From contig NZ_CP031834.1 of NCBI RefSeq assembly GCF_003590645.1, positions 496,001 to 560,000 of the forward strand: a stretch of 64,000 bases of DNA, in the 5' to 3' direction. The DNA comes from Mesorhizobium sp. DCY119. GTDB taxonomy: Bacteria; Pseudomonadota; Alphaproteobacteria; Rhizobiales; Rhizobiaceae. The notes under the pieces are model-generated. The model saw nothing but the letters and a program-made list of their open reading frames with translations. It ran no database searches and was not told where the DNA came from. Positions 20,374 through 64,000 of the stretch are shown one piece after another. The translations under genes and the position numbers were made by a program. The first letter of the stretch is position 1. Each line of letters opens with the position of its first letter.

Positions 20374-20730
20374 ATGAAGATCACTAGAACCGCGATCTGC
20401 GCGGTAACGATGACGGCCGGCCTGATGGTCGCCGCTTCCGCAGGAACCGCCTCGGCCCAGTGCGGCCGCGCTTCCTGGTACGCCCTCACCTCCAAGACCG
20501 CCTCCGGTGAGCGCATGAACCCCTCCGCCATGACCGCCGCGCATCGCAGCCTGCCCTTCGGCACCAAGCTGCGCGTCACCAACAAGAACAACGGCCGCAG
20601 CGTCATCGTGCGCATCAACGATCGCGGACCGTTCATCAAGGGCCGCGTGCTCGACGTCTCGAAGGCTGCCGCAAGGAGCCTCGGCTTCATCGGCTCGGGT
20701 CATACCGCCGTCTGCATGGCCAAGGCCTGA
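20374..20730 (+). CDS. RlpA-like septal/cell-wall protein (DPBB domain)
   Basis: Secreted 118-aa protein consisting of a signal peptide (residues 1-29, ending GTASA) and an RlpA-like double-psi beta-barrel. Family motifs are ASWYALTSKTASGERMNP, TAAHRSLPFGTKLRVTN and VRINDRGPFIKGRVLDVSKAAA. RlpA proteins act on peptidoglycan as lytic transglycosylases or bind it; the H and D of the barrel active site are present. There is no SPOR domain and no lipobox, so it is shorter than E. coli RlpA. ATG 20374 starts the signal peptide. Confidence 0.85.
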   Translation: MKITRTAICAVTMTAGLMVAASAGTASAQCGRASWYALTSKTASGERMNPSAMTAAHRSLPFGTKLRVTNKNNGRSVIVRINDRGPFIKGRVLDVSKAAARSLGFIGSGHTAVCMAKA

Positions 20731-21779
20731 AACCTATTCGCCGCAGTCGCGGCGATCGCCTCGGCCAGTTCGAGCCCCCATTGCGCCTTGCAATAGGCAC
20801 GGAAATCGAAACAGGGCAGGCCGGGGCAGACCTCGAATTCGATGAGGTGGACAGTGTCGTCCGCTTCCACGCGAAAATCCATCGAGAACACATCGCGCAG
20901 GCCGAGCGCCTGCATCAGCCGCGTTGCGATGGCGCCAATGCGCCCTGCCGCAACCGGCTGGCTCACTGCTACCGGCACCAGTTCCGGCTCGGCATAGCTG
21001 CCTGTCGCCCTGGCCTCCGCGCCGGTCTCGCCATAGAGCGCAAGACTGTCTTCCATGGTCTGGAAATCGCCGCCTGAATCGACAAAGAAAATGCCGAGCG
21101 CCTCCGCCCCGGCATCCGGCGTCACACCCAGAAAACTCAGGCGGACATTGCGGCCCGAAACATAGGGCTGGACGACGACATCGTCGCGATAAGCCGCAAA
21201 GACGCGGTGGCTGAGCTCCAGCGCATGGCCGGCAGTCTCGCAGCGTGAGTCGGCATAGATGCCGATCTTGGCGCCCAGGCGGTTCGGCTTGACGAAATAG
21301 CCCGTCACCGACGCCGGCGGCTCGACCAGCCAGCGCCCGTCGCGCGCCAGCCCCGCCTGCGGCACCGGCATATCCAGTGCGCCAAGCACTGCGCCCGCGC
21401 GAAACTTGTCCTGGCAGAGCGCAAACAGCGAATCGTCCGAGCCCAGCGTCCGCAGGCCGTTCAACCGCGCCAAAGCCGGGCCGGCGCTGCCGCGAAAATA
21501 GGCGATGCCATCGCTGATCGTCCACACCAGCGTGTTTTTGGGATCGCGCCCGGCAAGAGCTGTCGCAGCATCGTCCAATGCGACAGGCTCGAAGCGCAGA
21601 CCGCGGCGGGCGCAGGCCGTTTCCATTGCGCCGAACTCCGGCGCAATGTCGGTCGACTGCGCCAGATAAGACGAAATCTCCGCCGCCCGCGCGGCCGGAA
21701 ACCCGTCGCCCACCAGCCGGTCGAAGCAGGCCTTTTCCGGCTCGTAGATGAAGATCAGCGTCGGCGTCTGGTCGGGCAT
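20700..21779 (-). CDS. D-alanine-D-alanine ligase-like ATP-grasp protein
   Basis: Cytosolic 359-aa ATP-grasp ligase-like protein. The central domain has a Lys-containing strand (GYFVKPNRLGAKIGI) and VVVQPYVSGRNVRLSF. The C-terminal metal site reads DFRVEADDTVHLIEFEVCPGLPCFDF, in which the usual EINxxPG asparagine is replaced by V (EVCPGLP). It probably joins an amino acid or similar carboxylate to another molecule, with unknown substrates. ATG 21779 was chosen because the frame upstream is repeat sequence. It converges with the RlpA-like gene, and the 3' ends overlap by 31 bp. Confidence 0.7.
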   Translation of the reverse strand: MPDQTPTLIFIYEPEKACFDRLVGDGFPAARAAEISSYLAQSTDIAPEFGAMETACARRGLRFEPVALDDAATALAGRDPKNTLVWTISDGIAYFRGSAGPALARLNGLRTLGSDDSLFALCQDKFRAGAVLGALDMPVPQAGLARDGRWLVEPPASVTGYFVKPNRLGAKIGIYADSRCETAGHALELSHRVFAAYRDDVVVQPYVSGRNVRLSFLGVTPDAGAEALGIFFVDSGGDFQTMEDSLALYGETGAEARATGSYAEPELVPVAVSQPVAAGRIGAIATRLMQALGLRDVFSMDFRVEADDTVHLIEFEVCPGLPCFDFRAYCKAQWGLELAEAIAATAANRFQALAMQTAV

Positions 21780-21962
21780 TTTGATGGTTCCCGCAAAGGT
21801 GTGTTGCCGCCCAAGAATCGCACCACCCCGGAAAACGGCTTGCGCGAAATCGACCTCGGCGGGGCGCTGGCGTGACAGTGGTGTGTGACGTCGTGCGCGA
21901 TCCATTGCGGGCAGGGTCCTGATGTCGACGCGCGTTCTGCGCCGTTGAGGCTCTTCAGCGTT

Positions 21963-22462
21963 CCGGCATGGATCCCGAGTTTGCGCATTCGCTTCGCTCA
22001 TGCTCCGCCCGGGATTGTTTGTTTCGGGTGATGACGAGCGAGGAGCGGCACTTCAAATATCAACCTTGGCGACTAGCAGTGACAACCCTGAAGCTCGTCA
22101 TCCCGGAAACCGGAGCGGAGCGGAGGTTATCCGGGACCTATTGGCCGCAGCATCGTCGGGCGCGGCCCGGTCCTGACGCTGTTGCAGTCTGCACCGCCGA
22201 AACTCTTCTCCGTTCCGGCATGGATCCCGGGTCTCCGCTTCGCTCCGCCCGGGATGACGAAGAGAGGGGGTGTCGCCGCTAATCGCAAACGTTGTTGACT
22301 GCCGCACAGCAGGCGCGGCTACCGCGCCGGAGACGTAACTGCCGCGCGCCAGCGTTGACGATTAGCGAAGACCTAACATGCCGTTCGTCATCCCGGGCGC
22401 AGCATGAGCGAAGCGCATGCGGGGGTCGCTCTTGCGACGGATCCATGCCGGACCATCGATGA
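21963..22462. repeat. cluster of REP-like repeats with CGTCATCCCGG ends
   Basis: At least three related units occupy this gene-free stretch: 21963-22016, 22096-22259 (CGTCATCCCGG opposite CCGGGATGACG, with inner ATCCCGGG...CCCGGGAT) and 22387-22462. Shared words are GGCATGGATCC, CGCTTCGCTC and CCCGGGAT. These are typical of short palindromic elements scattered in rhizobial intergenic DNA. No gene is supported between 21780 and 23168. Confidence 0.7.
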
Positions 22463-22561
22463 AGGCCGCAGCGGTGCAGAACTGCCGAACCCGAAGCTCA
22501 CGCAGCGGGGGAAATATTTTCACCCAATTTCCCCTCAACCCATTGTTTCCATTCACCCCAC

Positions 22562-22958
22562 ACATTTTTTCTCGCCCGATTTATCCCCACCCTCAAACAC
22601 CCCCCGCATAATCCCCGCATCGCTCCTGCGGGACCGGGTCTGGAACCGGGATCAAGGGGGAGTGGCGGTGACCTCCCGCCCTGGTGTGGTAACCAGGGAC
22701 CCGAGGGCCCGACACAGGCCGGCGTGGAACGAGCACGGCGCAAATGCCTCTGCCCAAAACCATGCGGAGAACCCGCGGCGTCTTGTCCATGGAATGTACA
22801 TGGAGCGGGCGTTGTGACCGGCCGACTTCGGGACAGACACCGAGCGGGGCGCGGAAGTCGCGCCACGTACTAAACACTAGGAAGGCACGGCCAAGCGCCC
22901 CGCTTCCCGATCTTTGACAATGGCCAGACGGTGAAAACCGGGCGTGGCGATGATGAAG
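22562..22958 (+). repeat. dispersed ~400-bp element, copy A
   Basis: This 397-bp segment has a second copy in inverted orientation at the window's right end (63602-64000). The first ~60 bases (ACATTTTTTC, GATTTATCCCCACCC, CCCGCATAATCCC, CATCG) are about 80% identical between copies, and the last 46 bases match at 44 positions. The core has diverged but is nearly the same length. Copy A contains a perfect hairpin CCCTGGT-GTGGTA-ACCAGGG (22679-22698). No coding frame is conserved between the copies by eye. A structured RNA or a non-autonomous mobile element is possible. Confidence 0.65.
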
Positions 22959-22962
22959 CGCG

Positions 22963-23156
22963 CCTCACCTTCTCCCCTTGTGGGAGAAGGTGGCCGACCC
23001 GAAGGGGAGGTCGGATGAGGGGTGTTGGAAGAAATGCGACGAGGGGCGGGTAGCTATGCCTGCTACGGCTGTTCGGAACAGACGGCACTCCGTCCAGCAC
23101 CCCCCATCCGTCTTGGCGCTGCGCGCCAATCCACCTTCTCCCACAAGGGGAGAAGG
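22963..23156. repeat. large REP-like palindrome cluster
   Basis: Hairpins CACCTTCTCCC-CTTGT-GGGAGAAGGTG (22966-22992), TTGGCGC-TGC-GCGCCAA (23113-23129) and CCTTCTCCC...GGGAGAAGG (23134-23156) sit inside a longer imperfect pairing of GATGAGGGGTGTTGG with CCAGCACCCCCCATC. The unit begins 7 bp after dispersed element copy A and ends just before the GH42 gene stop. Confidence 0.7.
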
Positions 23157-23168
23157 AAGGGCGCAGCC

Positions 23169-25139
23169 TCAGCCCCGCCTGAACACCGCCACGCCGCATG
23201 GCTCCAGCAACTCATTGCCGAGCAGCAGCGATTTTCCTTCCGTCCACTGGCCTATATCGATCGGCTCCGGGCCGTAGTTGAAGATGTAGCGCAGCGGGCC
23301 GTTGTCGCGGATGCGGATGTCGCGCGGCAGGCGCTGGATGGCGATGCCGGCCTTGCCGCAGAGATATTCGACCACGCGCGCGGCGTAAGCGGCGTTGGGC
23401 TGGCCGGCGAGATAGTGGAAGGCACCGCCAGCGTCGCAGCAGAAAGCAGCCTCGTGGTCCTGCGTCCGGTCGATGACGCGAACGCCCTCGCCGGCGACGA
23501 GGAACTCGCGCCAGGTCTCGAAGGCCGAAACATTGGCAGGCTCCTCGATGGGGATGGCGAAAGGTGGTTCAAACGTTTCCGAGCGCCTGACCTTCACTGG
23601 AATGCGGCCCTGCAGGCCCTCGCCCGGCGGCAGTGCATCGGGAATGCGGAAGTCCGGCGTGCGTGACCCGGTTCGCGGGCCGGCAAGCACGATCTGGCCG
23701 TCGCCTCCGAGGGCTGCGGCAAGCTCTCCCGGCACCGAGAACAGGCCGGGCAGGAGAACGAGCCTGTAGCCTTGCACCGCCTCCGGCCTGGCCGGCACGA
23801 TGTCGACCGAGATCCCGAGCGCGCGCAGGGCGCGGTAGAAAATCAGGATCAGGCGCGCATAGGAAAAGGATCTTCCCTGCGGCTGGATCGACCACGCCCA
23901 GGCGCTTTCATAGTCGAAGACGATGGCGACCCGTGCCGGCGTCGTCTCGACCCTGGCGCCCAGATTTTCCAGCTCGCGCGAAACCGCGCGCACGACATGA
24001 AAGGCTTCGTTGGGCGCAGCATTCGGCAGCAACAGGCCCTCATGCATCTGCTCCTGTCCGAACGGCGCCTGGCGCCAGCGGAAATAGCTGACCACCTCCG
24101 CACCCGCCGCGAAGGCCTCCCACGCCCACAGGCGGATGGCACCGGGCGCGGGCGCGGGATTGTGGGCGGCCCAGTTCACCGGGCCGGGTTGCTGCTCCAT
24201 GACCCACCAGCGACCGCGCCCGCAGGCGCGATAGAGATCGTGGTTGAAGGCCTGGAAATCGGGATCGCCGACGCGCATGTAACGCTGCCGGCGCTCTGGA
24301 TCGGAACTGTTTTCGAGAAAGCCCAGCGGATAGGCATCCCACGAAGCGGCATCGAGATCGGCGGAGAGCACGAAATGATCGAAGCCGGTGAAGCCGCCCA
24401 TGAAATTGTGCAGGATCGTGCGGCCGGGCGAGTGCTTTCTGATGATGTCGGTCTGGAGCCGGTTGAAGGCCGCCACCTGCTCCGACGCATAGCGCCGAAA
24501 ATCCAGCCGGTGTGCGGGAGCGGCTTCGGTGACAGTGAGATTGGGCAGTTCGATCTCGTCGAAGGAACGATACTCCATCGACCAGAAAACGGTGCCCCAT
24601 GCCCGGTTCAGCGCCTGCGGCGACTGGTATTTTCGCGACAGCCAGTCGCGAAAGCCGGCAAGGGCTGCGCTGGAATAGCTGAGCACAGTGTCGTGGCAGC
24701 CATATTCATTGTCGGTCTGCCAGGCGACGATACCGGGATGCCCGCCGAAGCGCTCGGCAAGCGCGGTGACGATGCGGGCGCATTCGGCGCGATAGGGAAG
24801 ATGGCTGAAGCAGTAGTGCCGGCGCGAGCCAAAACCGCGTGTGCGGCCTTCGGCATCGACCGCCAGCATGTCGGGCATGGAATCGACCAGCCATTTGGGC
24901 GGCGTCGCCGTCGGCGTCCCGAGCACGATGTCCAGGCCCTCGCCGTGCAATGTCTCGATGGCGCGCTGGAGCCAGTCGAAATCGTAGCGGCCGGGCTCCG
25001 GTTCGAGCCGCGACCAGGCGAATTCGCCGATGCGCACAAGGCCGATGCCGGCTTCGCGCATCATGCGCGCGTCGATCGCCCACCGCTCCTCCGGCCAATG
25101 TTCGGGATAGTAGCAGACGCCGAGTTTCTGGACGGTCAT
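23169..25139 (-). CDS. beta-galactosidase, glycoside hydrolase family 42
   Basis: Hydrolyses terminal beta-galactosides to release galactose; 656 aa, the usual length for family 42. The N-terminal TIM barrel begins LGVCYYPEHWPEERW, has the acid/base Glu in WQTDNEYG and a likely nucleophile Glu in VMEQQPGPVNW. A trimerisation domain and small C-terminal beta domain (RYIFNYGPEPIDIG) follow. There is no signal peptide, so it is cytosolic. It is the last gene of a five-gene operon for galactose oxidation and supplies galactose to it, 15 bp after the lactonase gene. Confidence 0.92.
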   Translation of the reverse strand: MTVQKLGVCYYPEHWPEERWAIDARMMREAGIGLVRIGEFAWSRLEPEPGRYDFDWLQRAIETLHGEGLDIVLGTPTATPPKWLVDSMPDMLAVDAEGRTRGFGSRRHYCFSHLPYRAECARIVTALAERFGGHPGIVAWQTDNEYGCHDTVLSYSSAALAGFRDWLSRKYQSPQALNRAWGTVFWSMEYRSFDEIELPNLTVTEAAPAHRLDFRRYASEQVAAFNRLQTDIIRKHSPGRTILHNFMGGFTGFDHFVLSADLDAASWDAYPLGFLENSSDPERRQRYMRVGDPDFQAFNHDLYRACGRGRWWVMEQQPGPVNWAAHNPAPAPGAIRLWAWEAFAAGAEVVSYFRWRQAPFGQEQMHEGLLLPNAAPNEAFHVVRAVSRELENLGARVETTPARVAIVFDYESAWAWSIQPQGRSFSYARLILIFYRALRALGISVDIVPARPEAVQGYRLVLLPGLFSVPGELAAALGGDGQIVLAGPRTGSRTPDFRIPDALPPGEGLQGRIPVKVRRSETFEPPFAIPIEEPANVSAFETWREFLVAGEGVRVIDRTQDHEAAFCCDAGGAFHYLAGQPNAAYAARVVEYLCGKAGIAIQRLPRDIRIRDNGPLRYIFNYGPEPIDIGQWTEGKSLLLGNELLEPCGVAVFRRG

Positions 25140-25154
25140 CGGCGTAACCCCGGA

Positions 25155-26033
25155 TCAGATCAGGACGCGCGGCTCGAAACGGCCTTTCACCGGCAGGTCC
25201 AGCAGCAAGGTCTTGCCGGCCGTCGGGTCGGCCTTTCGCGCTGCCGCATCCATGCCTTCCTGAGCGGTGGTGACGGCAAGGCGATCGGCATTCGCGCCGA
25301 CAAAAGCCGGGCAGGACGGCTGCAGCGTGCCCACCTCGATGGTGCGGATGCGCTTGCCGTCGGGCGAATAGGCATCGACGCAGGATGCGCCCCAGCGTGC
25401 GTTCCACAACACGCCGTCGGCGTCGACCACAGAGCCGTCGAGGCCACCCTTCTTGCCACTGTGATCGAAGAACACTTTCGGCTCGCCGACCGGCAGCCCG
25501 GTCTCGGGATCGCAGCCGACGCGGTAGAGGATGTTTTCCCTGGTGTCGGTGTAATAGGCGGTCGCGCCGTCAGGCGAAAAACAGATAGAATTCGGGATCG
25601 AAATGTCGGGAAACAGTTTGCGGAACTCGCCCTTGAAGAACCAGTAGATCGAGCCGGCCTTGCGCTCGGCTTTTTTGCCCATCGTACCGACCCAGAACGC
25701 GCCGCAGGGGTGCACGCGCGAATCGTTGGAGCGGGTCGATGGATCGTCCGCCTCAATGGCGAAATGCGGCGTGACCGCACCGGTCCTGACATCGCGGATG
25801 TTCAGGCCGCTTTCGGTCATCAGCAGTTGATGACCGTCATTGATGACAGCCAGCGCGCTCGTCATCTCGGGCAGGTCGTGGACAATCGTCTCGCCGCCGG
25901 CGACGCGCTTTTCGAGCAGCTTTTTGCCCAGAATATCGAACCAGAACAGCGTGTCGGTGGCCGGATCGTAAGTCGGGCCCTCGCCGAGATGGCAGACATG
26001 TTCGGACAGGATCGAGACGCCGGTTTTATCCAT
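25155..26033 (-). CDS. SMP-30/gluconolactonase-family sugar lactonase
   Basis: Six-bladed beta-propeller of 292 aa predicted to open a sugar-1,5-lactone, here most likely galactonolactone. Metal-site residues fit the family: E in LGEGPTYD, N in IPNSICFSPDG and D in KGGLDGSVVDADG; RVHPCGAFWVGTM is also typical. The start ATG 26033 overlaps the end of the aldolase gene by 8 bp. It lies between aldolase and beta-galactosidase in the operon, supporting a role after the sugar dehydrogenase step. Confidence 0.88.
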   Translation of the reverse strand: MDKTGVSILSEHVCHLGEGPTYDPATDTLFWFDILGKKLLEKRVAGGETIVHDLPEMTSALAVINDGHQLLMTESGLNIRDVRTGAVTPHFAIEADDPSTRSNDSRVHPCGAFWVGTMGKKAERKAGSIYWFFKGEFRKLFPDISIPNSICFSPDGATAYYTDTRENILYRVGCDPETGLPVGEPKVFFDHSGKKGGLDGSVVDADGVLWNARWGASCVDAYSPDGKRIRTIEVGTLQPSCPAFVGANADRLAVTTAQEGMDAAARKADPTAGKTLLLDLPVKGRFEPRVLI

Positions 26034-26664
26034 CGAGCTTTCCTCCGAAAACGGCATCATAGGCGCTGACGGCCGCATGCGCACGGTCGCGAACCTCGGC
26101 CACGCTCATGCCCGGCTTGAACAGGCTCGAGCCGAGCCCGAAGGTGCGGACCCCGACCTTGGCGTAGCCGGCGAAATCGGTTTCCGACACGCCGCCGACC
26201 ACACCGACAATGGTCTCGGCCGGGAGGACGGCCTTGATCGCGGCAATACCGCCGGGTCCGAGCACGCTTGCCGGGAAGAATTTCAGCGCCGATGCGCCAA
26301 GGCCGATCGCCTGGAAGGCTTCCGTCGGGGTGAAGATGCCGGGCATGGTGACCATGCCGTGGTGGTTGGCGCGGTTCATGACGCCGGCATCGATGTTGGG
26401 GCTGACCAGAAGCCGCCCGCCGGCATCATGCAGCCTGTCAACATCCTGCGGCGTCAGCACCGTGCCGGCGCCGATCAACGCCTTGGGGAGTTTCGCGACC
26501 AGGCTTTCGATGGAGGTGAAAGGCTCCGGCGAATTGAGCGGCACTTCGATGGCCTCGATGCCGGCTTCGAAAATCGCGCTGCCGATGTCGACCGCCTCTT
26601 GCGGCTTCAAGCCACGGAGGATGGCTACAAGGCCGCGGCGGAGTTCTGGAAAGGGTGTCGTCAT
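26026..26664 (-). CDS. dgoA: 2-dehydro-3-deoxy-6-phosphogalactonate aldolase
   Basis: Cleaves 2-keto-3-deoxy-6-phosphogalactonate to pyruvate and glyceraldehyde 3-phosphate, the last step of the De Ley-Doudoroff route. The KDPG/KDPGal aldolase fold is clear: LVAILRGLKPQEAV, EVPLNSPEPF (catalytic Glu region), IGAGTVLTPQDVDRL, ISPN-like LLVSPNIDAG, and the Schiff-base Lys in ALKFFPASVLGPGG. The PLNSP form and the neighbouring kinase favour the galactonate rather than the gluconate enzyme. Its ATG overlaps the kinase stop by 4 bp. Confidence 0.92.
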   Translation of the reverse strand: MTTPFPELRRGLVAILRGLKPQEAVDIGSAIFEAGIEAIEVPLNSPEPFTSIESLVAKLPKALIGAGTVLTPQDVDRLHDAGGRLLVSPNIDAGVMNRANHHGMVTMPGIFTPTEAFQAIGLGASALKFFPASVLGPGGIAAIKAVLPAETIVGVVGGVSETDFAGYAKVGVRTFGLGSSLFKPGMSVAEVRDRAHAAVSAYDAVFGGKLDG

Positions 26665-63601: not shown

Positions 63602-64000
63602 CTTCATCATCGCCACGCCCGGTTTTCACCGTCTGTCCGTTGTCAAAGAACATTTTTCCTTGCTCATGACTCGCTATCTCGACCCGGCTTCGCCGATCGA
63701 GGCATCATGAGGGAAGACGGGCGGTCGTTGGATCGCTCGTTTATTGTATTTATCTGCGGTCCTTCGACCGCCCGTTCAGTGCTCTTGTCCCGCTCAGTCG
63801 CCTCCACATTCGCGTGGCCAGCCGCCGCCAAGACCCGGACTTAGGGGCTCATCACCCAGCAGCGCTACCGCAGCACCACCAGCCCGGACACCGCCGTCCC
63901 CCACGCTCATCCGGTTCATGACCCGTGTTCCCGGTGAGGACGATGGAGGGATTATGCGGGAGGCGGAAAGGGTGGGGATAAATCAGGCGTGAAAAAATGT
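63602..64000 (-). repeat. dispersed ~400-bp element, copy B (reaches window end)
   Basis: Inverted relative to copy A (22562-22958). Read on the minus strand it begins ACATTTTTTC...GATTTATCCCCACCC...CCCGCATAATCCC and ends in the 46-base block (63647-63602) matching copy A at 44 positions. The core differs in sequence and includes GGGCGGTCG...CGACCGCCC arms (near 63717-63773). No protein-coding gene is supported from 63431 to 64000. It may continue past the window. Confidence 0.65.

Follow-up and report, generated by a model that had tools for sequence, protein, structure and literature searches.

A 64,000-nucleotide stretch of the Mesorhizobium sp. DCY119 genome, hereafter the window, holds two look-alike segments in opposite orientations, copy A (22562-22958, + strand, 397 bp) and copy B (63602-64000, − strand, 399 bp). 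What kind of element keeps its ends alike around a core that differs from copy to copy? A sequence-only reading had recognized this pair and offered a structured RNA family, a non-autonomous transposable unit, or a variable cassette as possible answers. The resemblance is borne out by BLAST, which aligns the 3′ blocks over 48 bases at 96% identity and the 5′ blocks over 112 bases at 77%, with no alignment between the cores of A and B. As also observed in that reading, a REP-like palindromic repeat begins a few bases past the 3′ block in both copies, and no reading frame is common to them: individual copies hold an open frame here and there, none of which persists across types or genera.

Other parts of the initial description required revision. 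The element does not occur twice but is present in ~30 copies in the genome, and the closest relative of A matches it from end to end at 97% identity. The 5′ block is conserved as described, but alignment places its start upstream, at ~22507 rather than 22562. The position given for B stands, but not its extent, as the upstream part runs to ~560052 of the genome, 52 bases beyond the window. The two cores do differ but are not unrelated: core classes recur in other copies and in other species, so the cores of A and B are alternatives out of a set.

Anatomy of the element

Alignment of 19 oriented copies divides the element into a 5′ block, a core, and a 3′ block. The full unit measures ~450 bp, with a predicted RNA of ~335 nt here and longer in other forms. 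The 5′ block is C/T-rich, often contains an inverted pair (GGGGAAAGATT ... AATCTTTCCCC), and ends in a −10-like CATAAT. The core begins at CATCG ~5 nt after CATAAT, is nearly invariant inside a type, and is assembled from alternative modules, the central part and the 3′ hairpin each occurring in two forms. The 3′ block has the arrangement TCTTTGACAATGGCCAGA-[hairpin]-GGCGTGGCGATGA, where the hairpin varies among CGGTGAAAACCG, TGCGAAAGCA, and CTGCGATGCAG.

The promoter-like block of copy A (22507..22612, + strand) is conserved in the 19-copy alignment and comprises GGGGGAAATATT (22507-22518), TTATCCCC (22581-22588), and the −10-like CATAAT (22607-22612), the distance from motif to −10 being kept in other genera. 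It is followed by a predicted RNA of ~336 nt (22618..22953, + strand) extending from CATCG to GGCGATGA; the prediction draws on conservation limits, folding, and covariation, the first two of which place its ends. Three folded parts are predicted within it, all on the + strand. The 5′ hairpin (D1, 22618..22669), which carries a GGGA(A/C)C internal-loop strand, is found in single-sequence folds from many genera and is backed by arm permutation. The 3′ domain hairpin (D3, 22844..22903), formed by GCGGGGCGC / GCGCCCCGC, is seen in folds and is mostly invariant, with 98.6% of cells paired; other copies in the 19-copy alignment have the alternative form GACGGGCGG / CCGCCCGTC. The terminal block (D4, 22912..22953), CTTTGACAATGGCCAGA-hairpin-GGCGTGGCGATGA, shows changes on both sides at 3/3 inner pairs.

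Copy B repeats this layout on the − strand. Its promoter-like block (63951..64000) is cut by the window end, past which the match goes on, and includes TTATCCCC at 63981-63974 and CATAAT at 63956-63951. Folding predicts an RNA of ~339 nt (63607..63945) with a different core class, a D3-like stem at 63775-63717, and a terminal block at 63648-63607. Relatives of copy B lie at 1811812 and 1012962 of its own genome.

A promoter-like block with a fixed motif position

The 5′ block carries the motif TTATCC(A/C)C, usually found 25 bp ahead of CATAAT. We scored this motif in 42 promoters outside this genome, which are not independent, many of them coming from one genome (G034). At least 7 of 8 positions match in 29 of these, and 39 reach 6/8 or better, a score that is common (36%) in shuffled C/T-rich sequence. 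The weight of this comparison therefore rests on the fixed position of the motif: in 29/39 promoters reaching 6/8, it begins precisely 25 bp upstream of the −10. Diverged copies in a second family show this layout too. The motif differs from the usual −35 hexamer. Its resemblance to a DnaA box, together with the GTGGATA-like sites that about half of the promoters carry upstream, is suggestive only.

Compensatory changes support a structured RNA

In an alignment of 24 sequences of the 3′ domain, 98.0% of cells are paired as the proposed structure requires. Both sides changed in 28 cells, as compared to 7.2 in shuffles (0/500; the significance of this and the following tests is approximate, as shuffle and permutation controls ignore phylogeny), and sliding the partners abolishes the signal. 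The covariation sits in the terminal hairpin. The D3 stem, being mostly invariant, contributes little covariation support. U-G pairs are common in the helices of one strand, and the loops include GAAA-type ones.

Folding of single sequences from many genera gives the 5′ hairpin with differing arms (e.g., UUCCUCCC/GGGGAGGA, CGCCCUC/GAGGGCG, CGUUCUG/CAGAACG). Because MAFFT shifted one arm, column counts were replaced here by arm permutation, in which own arms outpaired permuted arms (0/2000). The helix closing the central domain likewise occurs as CGGUG/CACCG, CGGCG/CGCCG, CGAUG/CAUCG, and CGACG/CGUCG (2/2000 permutations). Folds of the whole predicted RNA gave z-scores of −2.7 for A and −2.9 for B. 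Compensatory changes across genera support the predicted structure in three places, namely the 5′ hairpin, the helix that closes the central domain, and the terminal hairpin. With covariation in these three regions, a promoter-like motif at fixed distance, no conserved frame, and no Rfam match at the Rfam thresholds, the suggestion of a structured RNA family is well supported.

Copies within the genome and their surroundings

With R1, a covariance model of the 3′ domain, 27 copies are recovered at E<1e-12 from the 4.84-Mb single-contig genome; the count rises to ~32 when B-type copies and remnants are added. Querying the whole genome with A returns 19 near-full-length copies at 74-100% identity, plus partials; B as query returns another set. 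Copies occur in both orientations. A scan of ten adjacent frames gave no partner protein and no consistent neighbour: two belong to ordinary enzyme families and eight have no Pfam hit.

Several observations concern the setting of the copies. Their spacing along the chromosome is more even than random (gap CV 0.67 vs 0.95; 1.25% of random sets were as even). The region upstream of A (window 21893-22506) is dense in REP-like palindromes, and blocks of it recur upstream of many copies. At five loci (L003, L009, L012, L014, L015), the RNA tail past the 3′ block seems to be interrupted by an inserted palindromic repeat, GTGCGTCCTTCGAGG...AGGATGAGGGAGG, and GTGGCGATGA (or GGGGATGA) is found again beyond the palindrome, as if duplicated by the insertion. 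By eye in the alignment, the copy at L002 seems to follow closely after a tRNA-like sequence. The genes around copy A (window 20700-22001, 23169-26084) encode an ATP-grasp-like protein with a D-Ala-D-Ala ligase C-terminal match, a GH42 beta-galactosidase, and an SMP-30/gluconolactonase-like protein, with no evident link to the RNA.

Distribution across genomes

Within its own GTDB family, R1 matches 80/297 genomes and 37/109 genera (E<=1e-3), and copies per genome range from 1 in many carriers to ~40 in G034. Named carriers of the element are Mesorhizobium zhangyense, Mesorhizobium sp. J18 and Root157, and Pseudaminobacter arsenicus. Of 385 genomes sampled across the class, this genome alone matched R1, with none in the 384 others. 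An order-wide sample gave two weak matches outside the family, one of which looks like chance. The other is a diverged relative from a second family (L306 reverse strand, L309-L320), which shares the promoter and hairpin layout and is multicopy in its own genome, with a TTATCCCC + CATACT promoter, a CACC-led 5′ hairpin, and a GCGGGCGCC/GGCGCCCGC 3′ hairpin.

Searches of plasmid and phage records with copy A returned nothing, and two types from another genus had no match among plasmids. Viral contigs gave 56 matches to a short pattern, which we attribute to chance as none exceeded 16 bits by model (E 0.09 or worse); a longer pattern had no match there.

Probable exchange of cores at shared loci

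Thirteen element loci are common to this genome and M. zhangyense, a member of the same GTDB genus, with flanks mostly 90-95% identical. Over the whole element, 11/12 loci compared are closer to a paralog in their own genome than to their ortholog, the exception being L162/L135. Module by module, core identity is 0.65-0.96 to the ortholog and mostly 0.92-1.00 to the best own-genome paralog. Blocks within a single element can differ in their affinities: at L147/L137 the promoter is nearest the ortholog (0.88 vs 0.79) and the core nearest a paralog (0.98 vs 0.69). Base-level alignment of L158/L127 reveals an exchanged 3′ hairpin and central module between otherwise near-identical blocks, and the B locus of M. 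zhangyense has a different core class between conserved ends. The suggestion of a variable cassette is supported in one particular sense: at loci shared by the two species, the ends stay and the core is swapped for another class.

Because elements at shared loci are nearer to own-genome paralogs than to orthologs, the simplest reading would be ectopic homologous recombination via the shared blocks, by which cores are exchanged in place. Repeated independent insertion, instead of conversion, may account for some of these loci; the block-wise identity within one element favors conversion.

Gain and loss of copies

The site of copy A is empty in M. zhangyense, where 25 bp stand in place of ~1.28 kb in this genome, between flanks that match at 90% and 93%. 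These flank matches delimit the missing composite (21893..23176), which consists of copy A with REP-like repeats on both sides. Several hundred bases of upstream sequence recur together with the element at other loci, so that gain or loss of copies may involve the whole composite. Flanks inspected by eye showed no terminal inverted repeats around the whole element and no target duplication of the RNA gene, the only inverted pair seen lying within the promoter block, and no mobilising enzyme was found beside the element. The element may or may not be a non-autonomous transposable unit: the A site is empty in the sister species, but the missing piece is a 1.28-kb composite that contains REP-like repeats. 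One M. zhangyense copy (L130) has flanks without a clear ortholog in this genome.

Discussion

We consider it probable that A and B each represent a gene of a multicopy family of structured noncoding RNAs, dispersed and with exchangeable cores, that is maintained by its hosts. Each copy would have a promoter of its own driving transcription from near CATCG, and the RNA would act in trans as a folded and probably protein-bound molecule. Recombination between copies via shared blocks (gene conversion) would keep the ends alike and shuffle the cores, with gain and loss of copies taking place in REP-rich intergenic composites.

The less probable but serious competitor is a selfish mobile element, non-autonomous and with a structured RNA that promotes the spread of the element (e.g., as the template or guide of an enzyme whose gene lies elsewhere) with no gain to the host. 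Multiple copies in both orientations, no consistent neighbour, numbers from 1 to ~40 per genome, a patchy distribution, and the empty A site in a sister species all fit this view. It is opposed by the position of most tested copies at loci common to both species, the absence of plasmid or phage matches for A, and the failure to find whole-element terminal repeats, target duplication, or an enzyme; moreover, what the empty site lacks is a larger REP-containing composite, extending beyond the RNA gene. A host-maintained family, which we favor, and a selfish RNA element would both be the same new RNA class.

An element acting as DNA, a large REP/BIME-like mosaic whose hairpins are DNA structures or protein-binding sites and whose transcription is incidental, seems improbable to us. 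The copies are embedded in REP-like repeats, and rhizobia are known to harbor RIME and REP repeats according to work cited in PMC2873474. Nonetheless, the U-G pairs common in one strand's helices, the GAAA-type loops, the −10-like box at a constant spacing to the start of the core, and a core sequence far more conserved than the flanking repeats argue against this view.

It is very unlikely that the element is a known IS, rRNA, tRNA, or catalogued RNA in remnant or variant form: TCTTTGACA in the 3′ block resembles the boxA of alphaproteobacterial rRNA leaders, but it is absent from several copies of other genera, the structure is conserved across genera, and no Rfam family reaches the gathering score. 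In Rfam 15 the whole window has 0 matches at the gathering cut-off, and copy A and ten other loci give, at relaxed thresholds, sub-threshold matches only, which are weak and disagree from copy to copy. Domain V of group II introns, raised by the GAAA hairpin, was rejected for helix lengths that differ from those of that domain and for want of an Rfam hit; CsrB-like decoys and Y RNA were also considered and not adopted.

Known systems share individual traits with the host-maintained family that we propose. HEARO RNA, which is transposon-associated, is likewise a structured RNA in multiple dispersed copies; unlike it, the element has no Rfam match, no nuclease gene was noticed, and a promoter-like block of its own is present. 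RIME and REP/BIME repeats are palindromic units of ~100 bp, from which the element is set apart as a ~450-bp unit with a promoter-like block and covarying RNA helices. Multicopy rhizobial sRNAs are short, simple hairpin RNAs, unlike the large RNA predicted here, which has no Rfam match. The likenesses are those of dispersed intergenic rhizobial repeats with palindromes and mosaic structure for RIME and REP/BIME (cited in PMC2873474), and of several related intergenic RNA genes per genome for the multicopy sRNA families (PMC3927594). Large orphan bacterial RNAs such as OLE, GOLLD, and ROOL are also structured and noncoding, with unclear function (PMC12286853); the element has no Rfam match to them and, unlike them, occurs with alternative cores as up to ~40 scattered copies per genome. 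Mobile or repeat sequence candidates form a category of genome-wide ncRNA screens and likewise have several copies per genome in inconsistent orientation to genes (PMC11109978), but no link to a transposase or integrase is seen here, and many element loci are common to two species. No description of the element family was found in the literature searched, and the family is previously uncatalogued.

The broader proposal divides our judgment evenly: this could be a new class of large, multicopy, structured RNA confined to parts of the Rhizobiales, with interchangeable cores behind one promoter design that are swapped in place by recombination, and with a DnaA-box-like motif that might tie expression to replication. 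If so, dozens of soil- and plant-associated genera would carry up to ~40 copies of an uncatalogued RNA. To our knowledge, exchange of RNA cores at fixed loci has rarely been described for bacterial ncRNAs, and it would amount to a natural experiment in RNA domain swapping. Single-copy species would allow function to be tested by one deletion.

The repeats also have a practical consequence, as they break draft assemblies and several contigs end inside the element. Such contigs stop inside or beside it at L089, L090, L092, and L094, as expected of assembly-breaking repeats.
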